Below the pieces are notes generated by a model. That model was not told where the DNA came from and did not search any database. It saw nothing but the letters and a program-made list of their open reading frames with translations. DNA of 61,212 nt, from positions 1-61,212 of IMG/VR virus record IMGVR_UViG_3300008113_000047, one strand, 5' to 3'. Of this stretch, positions 75 to 55,728 are shown in pieces. This DNA comes from a virus. Each line of letters starts with the position of its first letter. The stretch's first letter is position 1. Both the position numbers and the translations under genes were made by a program.

Positions 75-452
75 TTACACGCCGTATTTGTTTCGTTTAG
101 GTTTTGCAACTGGACTAACAACGTTGGTTGTTTTTAATTCTTGACTAGTTAAATCTCCGTGATTTAAATCTTTCCATTTTGCTCCTACTGCCTTGTAGGC
201 TTTTTTAAGCATTTCTTGTTCTTGGGGTGTATATGGGTGAGTAGTCTTACTTTTGTCAACCCAACTTTTAGCATCCATATCAGGATCGTTTGTACCATCT
301 GTACAAGCAACTGCCATACCTAAACGATATGACACATAGTCGCTGTTTCGTCTTTCAGCATCAGTATATAAATTTATACCAGTAGTTGACATGCCTTGTC
401 GTTTAGATATTGCTCCTGCCTTAATTTCAGTTATAAATTCTTTTGCTCTCAT
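75..452 (-). CDS. hypothetical protein, possible capsid-packaged internal protein
   Basis: A 125-residue protein that I do not recognise. It starts MRAKEFITEIKAG, close to the T4 internal-protein leader, with ITE as a candidate prohead protease site. The remainder is soluble and basic near its C-terminus, with no membrane segment and no catalytic motif that I can name. Its start overlaps the stop of the preceding nucleotidyltransferase-like gene by 4 bases (ATGA), so the two are probably translated together. Packaging into the virion is inferred from the leader only. Confidence 0.7.
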   Translation of the reverse strand: MRAKEFITEIKAGAISKRQGMSTTGINLYTDAERRNSDYVSYRLGMAVACTDGTNDPDMDAKSWVDKSKTTHPYTPQEQEMLKKAYKAVGAKWKDLNHGDLTSQELKTTNVVSPVAKPKRNKYGV

Positions 453-1465
453 TGGAAATATCCTTTAACCATATCTAGACCTTTTTGGATCTTTTCTCTG
501 TCTGCATTGGCACGTGCAATAGCATCTGGGGTTTGTGCTTTGTCACGCTTTTTACCAGCAATGTCAATTTGTGCTTTTTCTTCGTAACGTTGCCAAAACT
601 TATTCATAAAATCTTGTGCAGAGTTAAAATTTTGTAAATCACCTTTACCAAACATACCACTTGCTTCTGCACTTGAGGCAAATCCCTTCATACCATTAAC
701 TAGTTTGCTTATTTTAACATCGTTAATGTCGTTGCCAGAGAACTGTTTGAGCATGGGATCAATTCTTGGATTGTTCACGCCCATACGTTTGGCCAAATAC
801 ATAAACACATCTAATATAAATGTTTTTGGATTTGTTGTCACTGTGATTATTTGTGTATCTTTTTGTTTACTAAACGGCACACGTTGGTCATCAATTACTT
901 TAAGTTGTACTCCAGCATGTTGAATACTCATGTCAAGTATTTCACCAAATACACTGTACATGTTACCTGACAGTAAACCTTTGATACCACGTTCTGGAGT
1001 TACACGAGTAGCACCCCAATCCGCCATTTTTTGCTCATGCCACATAAAGTCAATTTGAACATAGTCTTGTTTACCAACTTGGAAAATTGGATGACCAGGT
1101 TTGCTTTCAGTTGTGTCTACATACGCAGGATTTGCAGTCTTAACAAAATCATCTGCTAGTTTATTCCAATAACCACTAAACTGTCCGTAAGTTAATCCTT
1201 CAACTGGCGGTGCAATCATTTGTAAATCAATATCGCCATAAATTGTATCTGGTCTTTCAATGGCGTCTTGTTCATGGTATGCACTGCTACCTGTTGGTCT
1301 TCCACGTTTAATTTGACCAACGTTTTTATTTTTAATAAAGTTATTGAAATCAACAACAAATCGATCTACTACAGATAAGGCAACACTTACAATTTTAGGA
1401 TGTAGTACAGTGTTTTGTGTTTTGGTAGTATCCCACCCGCCTTCAAATAGATCTTTAATACGCAT
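449..1465 (-). CDS. nucleotidyltransferase-like protein with capsid-targeting-like leader
   Basis: This 338-residue protein has the layout of the DNA polymerase beta-type nucleotidyltransferase fold: a Gly-Ser pair at about residues 59-60, a GDIDL carboxylate pair at D78/D80 and a third acidic residue in QIDFMW at about D139. These would bind two metals and transfer a nucleotide to an unknown acceptor. The N-terminus MRIKDLFEGG matches the leader shared by its neighbours, with LFE as a possible protease site. The C-terminal third is Lys/Gln-rich and probably helical. It lies directly downstream of a metallopeptidase gene with the same leader. The target is unknown; an injected, host-modifying enzyme is speculation based on the leader. 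Confidence 0.6.
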   Translation of the reverse strand: MRIKDLFEGGWDTTKTQNTVLHPKIVSVALSVVDRFVVDFNNFIKNKNVGQIKRGRPTGSSAYHEQDAIERPDTIYGDIDLQMIAPPVEGLTYGQFSGYWNKLADDFVKTANPAYVDTTESKPGHPIFQVGKQDYVQIDFMWHEQKMADWGATRVTPERGIKGLLSGNMYSVFGEILDMSIQHAGVQLKVIDDQRVPFSKQKDTQIITVTTNPKTFILDVFMYLAKRMGVNNPRIDPMLKQFSGNDINDVKISKLVNGMKGFASSAEASGMFGKGDLQNFNSAQDFMNKFWQRYEEKAQIDIAGKKRDKAQTPDAIARANADREKIQKGLDMVKGYFQ

Positions 1466-34158: not shown

Positions 34159-34446
34159 ATGTTCATACGATCCTTTAAAGAAATTTCTAATTATGTTCGA
34201 AGCAGTAAATTAGGCAAAGAACATCATTATACTAGAACAAAAACAATTAATGTTTTTCGATGTGACAATTGTGACAGGGATTTTACAAGGGATCATGCTA
34301 AGATAGACCCCAAAAGACTCAGCAACAAATATTTTCATGTTTGCGGAGAATGTGACGTCAAAAAATTTGCCCAACGAATGGGCATTACTAAAAGAAAAAT
34401 TTGGGATATGCCAGTTAGCAGTACATTGCCAATTGGTAAGATTTAA
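34159..34446 (+). CDS. zinc-ribbon protein conserved in T4-like phages
   Basis: A 95-residue basic protein with two CxxC pairs (CDNC and CGEC) separated by about 30 residues, fitting a treble-clef or zinc-ribbon fold. The segments YTRTKT before the first pair and KIWDMPVSSTL at the end match proteins I recall from aquatic T4-like phages. It may bind DNA or RNA. It is on the opposite strand to its neighbours and ends 4 bases inside the iscA-like gene (convergent). Confidence 0.7.
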   Translation: MFIRSFKEISNYVRSSKLGKEHHYTRTKTINVFRCDNCDRDFTRDHAKIDPKRLSNKYFHVCGECDVKKFAQRMGITKRKIWDMPVSSTLPIGKI

Positions 34447-34769
34447 ACTCTAAAACTTTCACCACATCCACAGCGGTCACGCTCATTGGGATTAATAAAA
34501 TCAAATCCTTCATTAAGTCCGTTGCGAACCCAATCCATTGTTAAACCATTTAGATAAGCCAAACTCTTGGCATCGACCAGCACAATAAATTCTGGTTGAC
34601 CAAAATTAGTGACTCCAGGTTCAGCAGTGTATTCATCCACATATTCGATAGTATAGGCCAATCCACTACAGCCTGTGGTTTTTACACCTATGCGAATACC
34701 CACGCCTTTGCCGCGTTTTTCTAAATTCTGTTTAATTCTCTTACGTGCTGTGTCGGTTACGGTAATCAT
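34443..34769 (-). CDS. A-type Fe-S carrier (IscA/ErpA-like)
   Basis: A 108-residue protein of the HesB/IscA family. It keeps the three conserved cysteines: Cys34 in TTGCSGLAY, and Cys100 and Cys102 in the C-terminal CGCG. Such proteins carry Fe-S clusters to target enzymes. It overlaps the iscU-like gene by 29 bases in another frame and ends the Fe-S operon. IscA-like genes alone are common in aquatic phages; a complete operon is not. Confidence 0.9.
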   Translation of the reverse strand: MITVTDTARKRIKQNLEKRGKGVGIRIGVKTTGCSGLAYTIEYVDEYTAEPGVTNFGQPEFIVLVDAKSLAYLNGLTMDWVRNGLNEGFDFINPNERDRCGCGESFRV

Positions 34770-35127
34770 TTACAGCCGCCTTAATAGCATCTTCTGCTAG
34801 AATACTACAGTGTATCTTTACTGGGGGTAATGCTAGTTCTGTGGCGATTTCGGAGTTTTTGATTGTTCCTGCTTCGTCGAGAGTTTTTCCTTTGAGCCAT
34901 TCTGTAACGAGACTCGAGCTCGCGATAGCCGATCCGCAGCCATACGTTTTAAATTTTGCATCTGTAATAATACCTGTATCATTGTCTACCTTTATCTGTA
35001 GTTTCATTACATCACCGCAAGCAGGTGCACCAACCATGCCAGTGCCAACATCGGTATCGTTCTTGTCAAAGCTACCAACGTTGCGAGGATTCTCGTAATG
35101 ATCGATTACTTTGTCTGAATATGCCAT
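34741..35127 (-). CDS. IscU-type Fe-S scaffold
   Basis: A 128-residue scaffold with the three cluster cysteines (Cys37 in APACGD, Cys64 in TYGCGSA, Cys107 in KIHCS) and Asp39. It carries LPPVK (100-104), the motif that the host chaperone HscA recognises in true IscU, so it should be able to use the host Isc chaperone system rather than SufU partners. It has a late-type promoter and a Shine-Dalgarno (AAAGGACAT). It sits in an otherwise Suf-type operon, so the cluster is a hybrid. Confidence 0.92.
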   Translation of the reverse strand: MAYSDKVIDHYENPRNVGSFDKNDTDVGTGMVGAPACGDVMKLQIKVDNDTGIITDAKFKTYGCGSAIASSSLVTEWLKGKTLDEAGTIKNSEIATELALPPVKIHCSILAEDAIKAAVNDYRNRHST

Positions 35128-35130
35128 ATT

Positions 35131-36279
35131 TTATGTCCTTTTAGAATTGTATTTATCGTAGAATTTTACAAGACCCTGTTTTAAATGTTCAACATCATCT
35201 TTAGTATTGTAGCAAGCCCAACTCAATCTAAGTATTCCATTTGGGAATTTTTCTTCTACAATTGGTCTTGCATTTAAATGACCATATTTTAATACAATTC
35301 CTTCGTTAAGTAAAAATTCTCCTACATAAGCAGGATGGTGGCCATGTACGTTGAAGCCAATTAAGCCACCTTTATAGTAACCTGGGTGGAATATTTCTAT
35401 GAAGTCAAGGTCATTCAACATCATTTGAAAGTTTGCATTCATAAGTTTGTCATGAACTTTAAAACTTTCTAAATCATATGAAGTGAACCAGTCAATTGCT
35501 GAACCTAACATTACTACCCCTGCAATGTTGGGTTTGCCAATTTCTAATTTCCAAGGGAGTAGTGTACTATTGCTATCACCTAATATAGTAGGTTCTAACT
35601 TGTCTAAATACTTTTGTTTCCCGTATAACATGCCAACACCCGTTGGACCATAAAATTTATGTCCAGTAAATGTTAAAAAATCAATATTGAAATCTTGCAC
35701 GTCTATTGTTTCTCTGCCAATGCTTAAACTTGCATCTAGCAAAGTTATCCCGTCATATTCTTTGACTTTATCAAATATACTTTTAACAGGTTGTACATAA
35801 CCAATACTGTTAGAGATATGGCTCATACTGAACAATATCTTACCATCACAGCCATTGAGTAAATCTTCAAGATGACCAAGATCCATACTGCCATCTTTGA
35901 TAACATTTACGGTTTCAAATCTAAAACCATATTCAATGGACATGTATTGCCAAATGAGAAAATTAGCATGGTGTTCACTTTCAGGAACAATTACACAATC
36001 ATTTGAATGCCATTTGTGACAAATGCTCTTGGCAATCATGTTTATGCCATGATTGTTTCCTTGAGTAAAAATTATTTCGTTGTCTTTTTTAGAATTAATT
36101 AATAATTTTACTTTTTGTCTAATAAACTCATACTCATCCCTTGCATCAATTTTATTACAAATATCAAGGTAGGAATCCTTTACCTGATTAGGAATTATAG
36201 TTTGTGATGCACTGTTTAAGTATGTTTTGTCTGGTAAAGTAAAATCGCTTTTAACTTTGGAAAAAATCTTTGAGTTCAT
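35131..36279 (-). CDS. SufS-like PLP protein lacking the desulfurase cysteine
   Basis: A 382-residue class V aminotransferase fold protein, start 36279 inside the end of the sufB/D-like gene. The PLP lysine is present (Lys208 in TGHKFYGPTG) as are His104 (SEHHAN) and Asp182. The loop that in SufS carries the catalytic cysteine (GHHCAMP in E. coli) reads GHLNARP here: Asn336 replaces Cys. The PLP-contacting Gln (DGAQ) is also changed (DASL). The rest aligns well, including RLSWACYNT. It probably binds PLP but cannot form the usual persulfide. It may be a decoy, a partner-binding subunit or a different PLP enzyme. Confidence 0.85.
   Translation of the reverse strand: MNSKIFSKVKSDFTLPDKTYLNSASQTIIPNQVKDSYLDICNKIDARDEYEFIRQKVKLLINSKKDNEIIFTQGNNHGINMIAKSICHKWHSNDCVIVPESEHHANFLIWQYMSIEYGFRFETVNVIKDGSMDLGHLEDLLNGCDGKILFSMSHISNSIGYVQPVKSIFDKVKEYDGITLLDASLSIGRETIDVQDFNIDFLTFTGHKFYGPTGVGMLYGKQKYLDKLEPTILGDSNSTLLPWKLEIGKPNIAGVVMLGSAIDWFTSYDLESFKVHDKLMNANFQMMLNDLDFIEIFHPGYYKGGLIGFNVHGHHPAYVGEFLLNEGIVLKYGHLNARPIVEEKFPNGILRLSWACYNTKDDVEHLKQGLVKFYDKYNSKRT
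35149..35157 (-). promoter_or_regulatory. late promoter GATAAATAC inside the Fe-S operon
   Basis: The motif lies 22 bases before the iscU-like start, within the last codons of the sufS-like gene. It would let iscU and iscA be expressed late without the suf genes. Confidence 0.5.
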
Positions 36280-37075
36280 CTTTAATGTCTTGATATTCAA
36301 TAAGTTCCAACACACTATCTTGATGCAGGGTTTTTAACAAGTTCTCAGCACTGACTTTATCAATGCCCTTGCTTTCTAAATACCATAGACTATGTTCGTC
36401 AATTGTAGTAACTTCACAACTATGATACGCCCGTACTTGTCCACAGTCAATAACCATTTGTGGAGTACTAAATGCTTGTGAAGTTTCGTCACAGACAATA
36501 CTGGTATTAGTTACACTGGACACGCTGTCTATCATGTCTTCTTCAATTTTAACAATACCCTGAAAGACAGTTCGACTATTTTTTCCAGCAATACTGTTTA
36601 CAAACGTGTTGCTCTCTGCACAAGGACCAGCGTGATAAACTTTGCTTATAATCTCACTGCTACCGCCAACCCCATTTTCTGCTAGACCAAAGATATTAAT
36701 AACAGAGTTTTCGTATAGCTCACATTCAAATATATGCTTATTAAGTTTCCCGTCTTTAACAAAAATCCCAATATTAATAATTGAATTTGGTTCAGCAGTT
36801 ACATTGTAAATAAAAACCTGTTGAGTATTTTTAGATCCATCGCATAGAATGAATAAGTCTAGCCTACTACTGTCTCTTCCAAGCACTTGTAAATTTTTGC
36901 ATAACAAATCTGATTCAGTTGGATTCATACGTAGAACCATCAAGTCATCAGTATTTTCTTTTATCATTAAGCAATTTGCATCAATGACCTTAAATTTTTT
37001 ACCAAAGTACTGTGTAGGACTGTTTGACCAATCTGGGTCTTGTGAATCAACTTTAAGAAAACTCTCGATAGCCAT
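36251..37075 (-). CDS. SufB/SufD-family scaffold protein (short, SufD-like)
   Basis: A 274-residue beta-helix protein of the SufBD family; E. coli SufB and SufD are over 420 residues, so the N-terminal part is shortened. The conserved core is clear: KNSRTVFQGIV, NTSIVCDETSQAFSTP, then VRAYHSCEVTTIDEHSLWYLESKGI. The His of AYHSC matches the cluster-site His of SufD. Only one such gene is present, where bacteria need SufB plus SufD; it could be a homodimer or join host SufB. It overlaps sufC by 23 bases and the sufS-like gene by 29. Confidence 0.85.
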   Translation of the reverse strand: MAIESFLKVDSQDPDWSNSPTQYFGKKFKVIDANCLMIKENTDDLMVLRMNPTESDLLCKNLQVLGRDSSRLDLFILCDGSKNTQQVFIYNVTAEPNSIINIGIFVKDGKLNKHIFECELYENSVINIFGLAENGVGGSSEIISKVYHAGPCAESNTFVNSIAGKNSRTVFQGIVKIEEDMIDSVSSVTNTSIVCDETSQAFSTPQMVIDCGQVRAYHSCEVTTIDEHSLWYLESKGIDKVSAENLLKTLHQDSVLELIEYQDIKDELKDFFQS

Positions 37076-37778
37076 TTGAAATGATCCTTTTAATTATTTT
37101 CTTATCACCTGACTCCACGATTCTTCCATCTATGATAACATGCACATGTGTGGGCTCTATTGCTTCAAGGATCGTTGGTTGATGTGTGATAATGATAGCT
37201 GCCTTTCCTTTTTGTGAGAGGAAAGATTTTAAACTTTTAAATACTTCAGTTAGTGTGTCTAAGTCTAAGCCACTGTCAATATCGTCTAAAATTGTAAGAG
37301 ATGGATTGAGCATGTATAACTGTACAATTTCATTTTTCTTTTTTTCGCCTGCGCTTGCTCCTACGTTGTAATCTCGATTAGACCATTCGCTTCCTAGATC
37401 AAATTGTTTTATTAAATTTTTATAATCATTAATAACGTCAGTTGATGATCTTTTATCATTTCGAGCATTCAAAATTTGTCTAGTTAAATTTAAATTTGTA
37501 ATGCCATTAATTTCAGGTGGCTCCTGAAATGTTGTAAAAATTCCTAATTTACTTCTTTCATTTGGATCTAAACTGTTTAAAGATTTTCTCTTAAAGTTTA
37601 TTTTACCTTTGACAACGCTAAGATCTGATTTGCCAGCAATAACACTGACTAAGGAACTTTTGCCTGAACCTGTTGGTCCTAAAATGGCGTGAATTTCGCC
37701 TTCATTGATTTCTAAATTGATATCTTCCAAAATTGGAATAACGTCGTAATTGACGGAGAGATTTGTAATTTTTAACAT
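37053..37778 (-). CDS. SufC-like ABC ATPase with altered catalytic motifs
   Basis: A 241-residue ATPase of the SufC type: Walker A GPTGSGKS (34-41), Q-loop FTTFQEPPEI and a THQP switch. Two motifs differ from SufC. The signature is SAGEKKKNE instead of SGGEKKRN (Gly to Ala at 143), and Walker B reads LTILDDIDSGLD, with Asp166 where the catalytic Glu stands in SufC (LDESDSGLD). ATP binding is likely intact but hydrolysis may be slow. It is the first gene of the operon, behind a strong host-type promoter. Confidence 0.88.
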   Translation of the reverse strand: MLKITNLSVNYDVIPILEDINLEINEGEIHAILGPTGSGKSSLVSVIAGKSDLSVVKGKINFKRKSLNSLDPNERSKLGIFTTFQEPPEINGITNLNLTRQILNARNDKRSSTDVINDYKNLIKQFDLGSEWSNRDYNVGASAGEKKKNEIVQLYMLNPSLTILDDIDSGLDLDTLTEVFKSLKSFLSQKGKAAIIITHQPTILEAIEPTHVHVIIDGRIVESGDKKIIKRIISNGYREFS

Positions 37779-37821: not shown

Positions 37822-37850
37822 ATTGTAGCACCAATATCTCTTTAAGTCAA
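37822..37850 (-). promoter_or_regulatory. sigma70 promoter of the Fe-S operon
   Basis: TTGACT (37845-37850), 17-base spacer and TACAAT (37822-37827). The transcript would start about 35 bases before the sufC-like gene. A host-type promoter suggests early expression. Confidence 0.75.
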
Positions 37851-37922: not shown

Positions 37923-38213
37923 ATGATTAAATTTCTAAAATCATTATTTGGTTCAGAGAAGCCGGTAACAGCAGAAGTTCCATATAAAGTGGAAGCACCT
38001 GCGACAACACCAGTTGTTGAGCAAGCTAGTCAAGCAGTTGTTGAATCAATTGCACCAGCTAAGAAAAAGCCAGCAACTAAAAAGGCACCTGCAAAGGCAC
38101 CTGCAAAGGCACCTGCAAAAGCTAAGGCAGCTCCAAAACCAAAAGCCCCAGCAAAGACACCAGCTGTAAAGAAAGTTGGTACTAAGCCTAGGGCGCCTAA
38201 GAAGACTGCGTAA
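37923..38213 (+). CDS. Lys/Ala/Pro-rich histone H1-tail-like protein
   Basis: A 96-residue protein with a short N-terminal amphipathic helix (MIKFLKSLFG) and a C-terminal half built from KAPA/PAK repeats, like the tails of histone H1 and some bacterial nucleoid proteins. It could coat nucleic acid or the inside of the capsid. The N-terminal helix may attach to a membrane or protein. A strong ribosome site (AAGGAGAT) precedes the ATG and a terminator follows. Similar proteins are seen in other aquatic phages as I recall. Confidence 0.75.
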   Translation: MIKFLKSLFGSEKPVTAEVPYKVEAPATTPVVEQASQAVVESIAPAKKKPATKKAPAKAPAKAPAKAKAAPKPKAPAKTPAVKKVGTKPRAPKKTA

Positions 38214-55496: not shown

Positions 55497-55581
55497 TGGT
55501 GCGACTGCCCGGAATCGAACCGGGATGCCTGTGGGCGAGAGATTTTAAGTCTCTTGTGTCTACCTATTTCACCACAGTCGC
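55497..55581 (-). tRNA. tRNA-Leu (UAA), copy 1
   Basis: Class II tRNA with a 7-bp acceptor stem (GCGACTG / CAGTCGC), a D arm, an anticodon stem AGAGA/TCTCT with loop CTTAAAA (anticodon TAA), a long variable arm, T arm CCCGG-TTCGATT-CCGGG and an encoded ACCA end. It reads UUA and, by wobble, UUG leucine codons, which fit an AT-rich phage. Confidence 0.93.
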
Positions 55582-55643
55582 AATGTCCTTGTAAAGTGTT
55601 CTATATTATATATGTGTTTGTTATTTTTGTCAACTATGTATTT

Positions 55644-55728
55644 TGGTGCCTGCACCCAGAATCGAACTGGGAAGGATTTCTCCGGCAGATTTTAAGTCTG
55701 CTGTGTTTACCGATTTCACCATGCAGGC
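55644..55728 (-). tRNA. tRNA-Leu (UAA), copy 2
   Basis: Acceptor stem GCCTGCA / TGCAGGC, anticodon stem GCAGA/TCTGC with loop CTTAAAA (anticodon TAA), a long variable arm, T arm CCCAG-TTCGATT-CTGGG and encoded ACCA. Its body differs from copy 1, so the two are not a recent duplication. Confidence 0.93.

Follow-up and report, generated by a model that had tools for sequence, protein, structure and literature searches.

A SufB-less sufC-sufD-sufS operon with altered catalytic residues beside intact iscU and iscA genes in a phage

What does a phage gain from an operon that reads as Fe-S cluster machinery, when the proteins resembling its cysteine desulfurase and its ATPase have altered catalytic residues? 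The question arises in the window, by which we mean the whole stretch of 61,212 nucleotides analysed, an IMG/VR virus contig of 61 kb. Its Fe-S genes are read on the minus strand in the order given in the preliminary description (sufC, sufB/D, sufS, iscU, iscA), the second gene being SufD-like:

37053 to 37778, minus strand: sufC-like gene, 241 aa, SufC-family ABC ATPase with altered catalytic motifs
36251 to 37075, minus strand: sufD-like gene, 274 aa, overlapping sufC by 23 bp and sufS by 29 bp
35131 to 36279, minus strand: sufS-like gene, 382 aa, class-V PLP fold, desulfurase residues lost, K208 kept
34741 to 35127, minus strand: iscU, 128 aa, intact
34443 to 34769, minus strand: gene of an IscA-type carrier, 108 aa, cysteines intact
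37822 to 37850, minus strand: sigma-70-like promoter upstream of sufC, TTGACT-17-TACAAT, with TG preceding the -10 box

The sufS start is the ATG at 36279, common to the relatives; the GTG at 36315 is an unlikely start, since the relatives use the ATG. The iscU gene begins 3 bp past sufS and overlaps iscA. The operon is flanked by a UV endonuclease/QueD block and by a gene encoding a 2853-aa tail-fibre-like protein. Divergent from it, at 37923-38213 on the plus strand, a small Lys/Ala/Pro-rich histone-H1-like protein is encoded, for which Pfam gives no match; similar proteins occur at this position in the related loci L005, L007, L008 and L009. A 95-aa ORF on the opposite strand (34159-34446, plus) borders the locus, has CxxC pairs and appears zinc-ribbon-like with no family match; it adjoins most of the related loci, SUF, ISC and reduced alike. 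Elsewhere in the window we observed a tandem pair of tRNA-Leu genes with identical anticodon (taa; 55497-55728, minus strand), and a 338-aa protein (449-1465, minus strand) matching neither PHROG nor, by tblastn, any of 50,697 phage records.

A promoter scan taken alone performs at chance (16 found, 16.5 expected), and the -35/-10 pair upstream of sufC recurs in four lineages (the window, L005, L014 and L007, the last with a perfect consensus). This conservation supports the host-type promoter proposed earlier; on its promoter sequence, the operon is transcribed in host fashion and probably early, as was also proposed.

The changes in the SufS-like protein map to the following codons:

35272 to 35274, minus strand: Asn336 (AAT), site of the catalytic Cys (C364 of E. 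coli SufS)
35725 to 35727, minus strand: Leu185, site of the PLP-contacting Gln (Q203)
35656 to 35658, minus strand: Lys208, the PLP Schiff-base lysine (K226), kept here and lost only in L014/L015
35533 to 35535, minus strand: Lys249, at Thr278 (PLP phosphate, neighbouring subunit)
35554 to 35586, minus strand: deletion site of the type II beta-hairpin (about E. coli 256-266), residues 232-242

Both substitutions that had been noticed from the letters alone, Cys to Asn336 and Gln to Leu185, hold in the alignments: Asn336 aligns to the Cys of solved SufS structures in an ungapped stretch. Asn is the state of the window, L002-L006 and L009, and Asp that of L014. A sequencing error was rejected: turning Cys into AAT takes two nucleotide changes, and L002-L006 have the same state, as does L009, which is 67% identical. 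Cys356 (WACYN) was likewise rejected as a substitute catalytic Cys, being present also in the Cys-bearing relatives and lost in L009 (SHYN). Further changes (E. coli numbering) are T94N/T95N, S223T, T278K and R359K, and the HRG segment is missing. The hairpin is removed by a 10-column deletion relative to L007, L008, L013 and L018, and model confidence is low at residues 232-242. This hairpin is a defining feature of type II desulfurases that shields the persulfide and positions SufE (PMC10011822). Lys208, Asp182, His104, His207, Asn157 and Arg351 are retained. The protein matches PF00266 with 258 bits, while on TIGR01979 it reaches 267 bits against a cut-off of 475, below which the Cys-bearing phage relatives also fall (417-435). 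Its AlphaFold model (pLDDT 86.9) has E. coli SufS as best Foldseek match, with a TM of 0.90-0.92. The fold and the PLP lysine of a type II cysteine desulfurase are present, and the Cys, the hairpin, a score above the TIGR01979 cut-off and a SufE/SufU partner are absent.

The SufC-like protein passes the curated sufC model (TIGR01978, 253 bits, cut-off 212.8), with intact Walker A, Q-loop and H-loop. The two alterations reported for it were also recovered, the SGGE signature being SAGE, and the Walker B Glu, in the motif DDIDS, being replaced as follows:

37281 to 37283, minus strand: Asp166, at the Walker B catalytic Glu position (E171 of E. coli SufC)

Asp166 is common to L005, L009 and L014, and every SufC from a SufB-containing operon has Glu. 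The SufC of L009 and of L014 additionally lose the signature and the H-loop His. In an ABC ATPase of this kind, Glu to Asp may merely slow hydrolysis. The SufD-like protein belongs to PF01458 (94.9 bits) and stays below the cut-offs of both specific models, with 99.8 bits for sufD (TIGR01981, cut-off 222) and 57 bits for sufB. When aligned to E. coli SufD, its His218 corresponds to H360; two Cys lie nearby, and the L009 SufD has Gln at this His. Where SufB has C405, the scaffold residue (PMC5571166), it has Asn. Among sufC, sufD and sufS, sufD is the best conserved between reduced and full operons.

The other end of the operon is intact. As stated earlier, scaffold and carrier keep their cysteines (IscU C37/D39/C64/C107; IscA C34/C100/C102), and IscU has the LPPVK motif. 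IscU passes TIGR01999 (224.8 bits, cut-off 192.4) and fails the SufU model (67 bits, cut-off 92.5), so it is not SufU; the carrier passes TIGR00049 (100.6 bits, cut-off 58.8) and is below the IscA model TIGR02011 (132.9 against 150.6). With these cysteines and LPPVK kept, a partnership with host IscS and HscA/HscB is plausible from the protein sequence, and the earlier suggestion that sulfur is taken from a host desulfurase fits the intact IscU/IscA.

Relatives were sought by scans of viral contigs plus an ORF survey, and the same locus was found in many related phages with alternative contents. Four of them (L007, L008, L013 and L018) carry a complete operon, sufB-C-D-S-E-T-A. Most have only the ISC form, an Fe/Mn superoxide dismutase (SOD) gene followed by iscU and iscA, the SOD identity being confirmed for the L008 copy. 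We noted a superoxide-dismutase-like gene just before iscU-iscA in L139, L144, L147 and about 30 further loci; such a cassette might serve the phage in oxidative stress. The reduced form is known from three lineages, namely the window with L002-L006, L009 (a single scaffold with a gap inside sufC), and L014-L016, arranged SufC-SufD-SufS-SOD-SufA-IscU-IscA. All lack sufB, sufE and sufT. The catalytic motifs follow the gene content throughout the survey: SufS Cys/Gln/Lys and SufC SGGE/Glu/His are intact in all SufB-containing operons, and the SufS and SufC motifs are altered in all reduced ones. In two reduced-type contigs of 214 and 245 kb (G001 and G002, perhaps incomplete), we found a single SufBD gene, which is SufD-like, and no SufB, no SufE (PF02657) and no second class-V (PF00266) desulfurase, either SufS or IscS; the last result argues that there is no phage IscS.

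The window, L009 and L014 share SufC E166D, the derived SufS T249K and the loss of the hairpin, which suggests one origin of the disarming, probably in a single event. In the SufS tree, the window and L009 form a clade (support 96/100) inside Cys-bearing SufS of freshwater phages, while L014 is a long branch (1.76 for SufS, 0.87 for SufC) whose exact placement is unsure. Judged by tree and alignments, the disarmed SufS/SufC at this one fixed locus is a derived state. A bacterial source of the Cys-less SufS was also considered and rejected: in the sampled class, the six best bacterial hits inspected all keep the Cys, and the phage tree puts the change within the phage clade.

This comparison does not support the idea of a mixed, working Fe-S operon, as the window lacks SufE, SufT and SufB, the last with its essential C405, all three of which the complete relatives have. 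Since the SUF half has no SufB C405, no persulfide Cys and no SufE, de novo assembly by it, and with that canonical Fe-S assembly, is excluded on composition, as read from the predicted proteins.

The ISC half has had its own history. Between the window and L005, IscU-IscA are far more diverged than both flanks (IscA 65% identical; IscU synonymous sites saturated). The window IscU is up to 96% identical to that of ISC-type phages, against up to 88% to any bacterium found. In L009, the locus has no IscU/IscA, SufC-SufD-SufS being followed directly by the next conserved ORF. From these comparisons, the IscU-IscA cassette is swapped independently while SufCDS stays. Such exchange, together with the L009 locus, makes a dedicated SufCDS-IscU machine unlikely and weakens the coupling of SufCDS to IscU that had been considered.

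We then asked whether the three SUF genes are still maintained. Between the window and L005 (SufS identity 93%), dN/dS is 0.058 for SufC, 0.048 for SufD and 0.049 for SufS, with 0.046 for UvsE and 0.032 for a tail protein as controls. At the level of sequence, the three genes are constrained in the window clade like ordinary functional genes and are not decaying. Alignment with related phages had been set beforehand as the check on whether the substitutions are selected; they recur, under strong purifying selection. The SufS pocket, whose positions we chose from what is known of E. coli SufS, is identical at 25/25 positions between the window and L009, against 250/375 (67%) overall (P 2.6e-5). 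With the fairer control of columns that do not vary in the Cys forms, P is 0.002; for a strict pocket set of 14 it is 0.035. Of the changes in the pocket, 9/9 are shared by both lineages, against 16/41 elsewhere (P 0.0016). Conservation of the pocket positions may reflect no more than the needs of folding. In these two lineages, the alignments indicate a SufS pocket that is first remodelled and then kept. The L014 lineage is different: L014/L015 have lost the whole pocket, PLP lysine included, with the predicted fold retained (L014 pLDDT 86.4; TM 0.83-0.89 to SufS among the best hits). In L016 (1049-2028), a 25 bp deletion frameshifts the L014-type sufS, from either real decay or an assembly error. 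The pocket loss and this frameshift indicate that PLP binding is not needed in every reduced lineage, and probably that one of these lineages is decaying; as far as the sequences tell, the pocket is important to two lineages and gone from the third.

Starting from the observed series of operon states, lost residues, missing partners and purifying selection, we suggest, as a reading with about an even chance of being right, that SufC-SufD-SufS is a complex without SufB and without desulfurase activity, whose pocket has been remodelled and whose role is new, and that Fe-S assembly has passed to IscU/IscA and the host ISC system. The SUF operon would have been complete in an ancestral phage, and one lineage would have dropped sufB, sufE and sufT and come to differ at the catalytic residues of its SufC and SufS. 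In the lineages of the window and L014, the IscU-IscA cassette of the phage family would have been placed beside the SUF remnant. New clusters in the window phage would be built on the phage IscU, for which the host would provide IscS as sulfur source and HscA/HscB, and IscA would hand them on to phage radical-SAM and other Fe-S proteins. These phages have use for Fe-S clusters, given their radical-SAM proteins: there are 4-5 radical-SAM matches in the reduced-type genomes and 17 and 19 in two relatives. The latter numbers, from G008 (235,561 bp, L046) and G007 (281,658 bp, L170) respectively, are unusually high for phages.

The SufC-like and SufD-like proteins would form a SufB-less complex of the SufC2D2 type, which may bind ATP with slow or no hydrolysis. 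The SufS-like protein would hold PLP in a more open, remodelled pocket, forming no persulfide and desulfurating no cysteine. Made from overlapping genes, the three would have a role independent of IscU/IscA, most likely with a client or small amine bound in the SufS pocket and SufC-SufD as a nucleotide-gated platform. That the trio is neofunctionalised in this way, as a PLP-containing, nucleotide-gated complex that makes no Fe-S clusters, and so gives the SufB-less SufCD core a real biological role, is a tentative proposal, somewhat short of an even chance.

One alternative is new PLP chemistry, in which the SufS-like protein is active on a non-cysteine substrate, for instance as a selenocysteine or sulfinate lyase, a decarboxylase, or an aminotransferase whose substrate is larger. 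Selenocysteine lyase activity is reported to persist in E. coli SufS that lacks C364. The retained Lys208, Asp182, His104, His207 and Arg351 would suit such an enzyme, the phosphate-side Thr replaced by Asn/Lys could still hold the phosphate, and loss of the hairpin opens a pocket that was frozen afterwards. However, Arg359 and Gln203 are gone, L014 keeps the gene though its whole pocket is lost, and no nearby metabolic genes point to a substrate. We consider it unlikely.

The three genes could also be a decaying remnant, with ISC having replaced SUF and sufC, sufD and sufS persisting as outgoing pseudogenes because translation of iscU-iscA is coupled to them by overlap. The loss of sufB/E/T, the progressive loss of motifs in L009 and L014, the long L014 branches with the frameshifted L016 SufS, and the fact that most relatives have SOD-IscU-IscA alone at this locus would all be expected from such decay. 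Yet dN/dS near 0.05 in all three genes of the window clade equals that of functional neighbours, the remodelled pocket is frozen between the window and L009, the ORFs are intact in several lineages, and L009 retains SufCDS with no IscU/IscA to couple to, so that decay appears quite improbable.

Just as hard to sustain is a downstream use of the SUF proteins, by which SufC-SufD would carry or insert IscU-built clusters and SufS would be a structural subunit. The shared operon and the His218 (H360) of SufD with its two nearby Cys are in agreement with it; on the other hand, without SufB there is no C405 ligand, L009 has Gln at the His, and the exchanged cassette and L009 both show that SufCDS does not depend on IscU/IscA.

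Finally, a decoy that blocks host SUF components (dominant negative) or diverts the host desulfurase is very unlikely, since, although fold-keeping inactive subunits are typical of dominant negatives and the host-type promoter suggests expression early in infection, such a decoy would not need a conserved pocket, the phage itself needs Fe-S proteins, and SufB/SufD are absent in 18/20 genomes carrying the closest IscU among the matches listed. Under strict patterns, the nearest bacterial IscU among these matches are from Burkholderiales (82-88%); if the host is of this kind, the locking of host SUF suggested earlier, or a decoy for it, is weakened and competition with host SUF is less likely.

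Compared with known systems, the nearest are the E. coli SUF (SufBC2D with SufSE) and the complete phage operons of L007, L008, L013 and L018, with which the window shares a SufC that passes the sufC model and the SufS fold. Its sufC, sufD and sufS are orthologous to the phage ones in order, overlaps and locus, but SufB, SufE and SufT, the SufS Cys/Gln/hairpin and the SufC Walker B Glu are lacking. The SufCDSUB operons of Firmicutes (B. subtilis, S. mutans) also have the order C-D-S followed by an IscU-family protein. In the window, however, the fourth gene encodes a true IscU with LPPVK, there is no SufB, and SufS lacks the Cys that SufU needs. The minimal SMS/SmsCB systems and SufB2C2 of methanogens likewise combine a SufC-type ATPase with a single SufBD-type partner and no desulfurase, but the partner in the window is SufD-like rather than SufB/SmsB, and its SufC is catalytically altered. 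E. coli SufC2D2 (PDB 2zu0) has the composition expected in the window if SufD pairs with itself. This sub-complex is known in vitro and is thought to have no physiological role (PMC6006206), whereas in the window SufB is altogether absent.

Among phages, iscU, sufA, sufE and paaD have already been described (PMC5332604, PMC8940887). The iscU and iscA genes that close the operon, both intact, resemble the auxiliary genes for IscU and an A-type carrier in marine T4-like phages (PMC5332604), for which the relevant passages describe no SufC, SufD or Cys-less SufS. Within the literature covered, which is incomplete, we found no Cys-less SufS and no SufB-less SUF operon in phages, and tblastn against 50,697 phage records for an isolate with this operon gave only distant SufD-like hits. 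What is new is the combination and state of the parts, whose families are known.

Within one virus family and at one locus, the machine is found in several stages: intact, disarmed yet under selection, in collapse, and displaced by ISC. Where SufB/SufE are lost, so are the SufS cysteine, the hairpin that positions SufE and the SufC catalytic Glu. The locus also offers a natural SufB-less SufC-SufD pair and a cysteine-desulfurase relative that is conserved although it lacks the cysteine. In annotation pipelines and surveys of auxiliary genes, sufS and sufC would pass as working here, and a cluster synthesis would be inferred that is probably absent. In this lineage of freshwater giant phages, sufC, sufD and sufS have been kept under tight selection and probably do a new, undescribed job.
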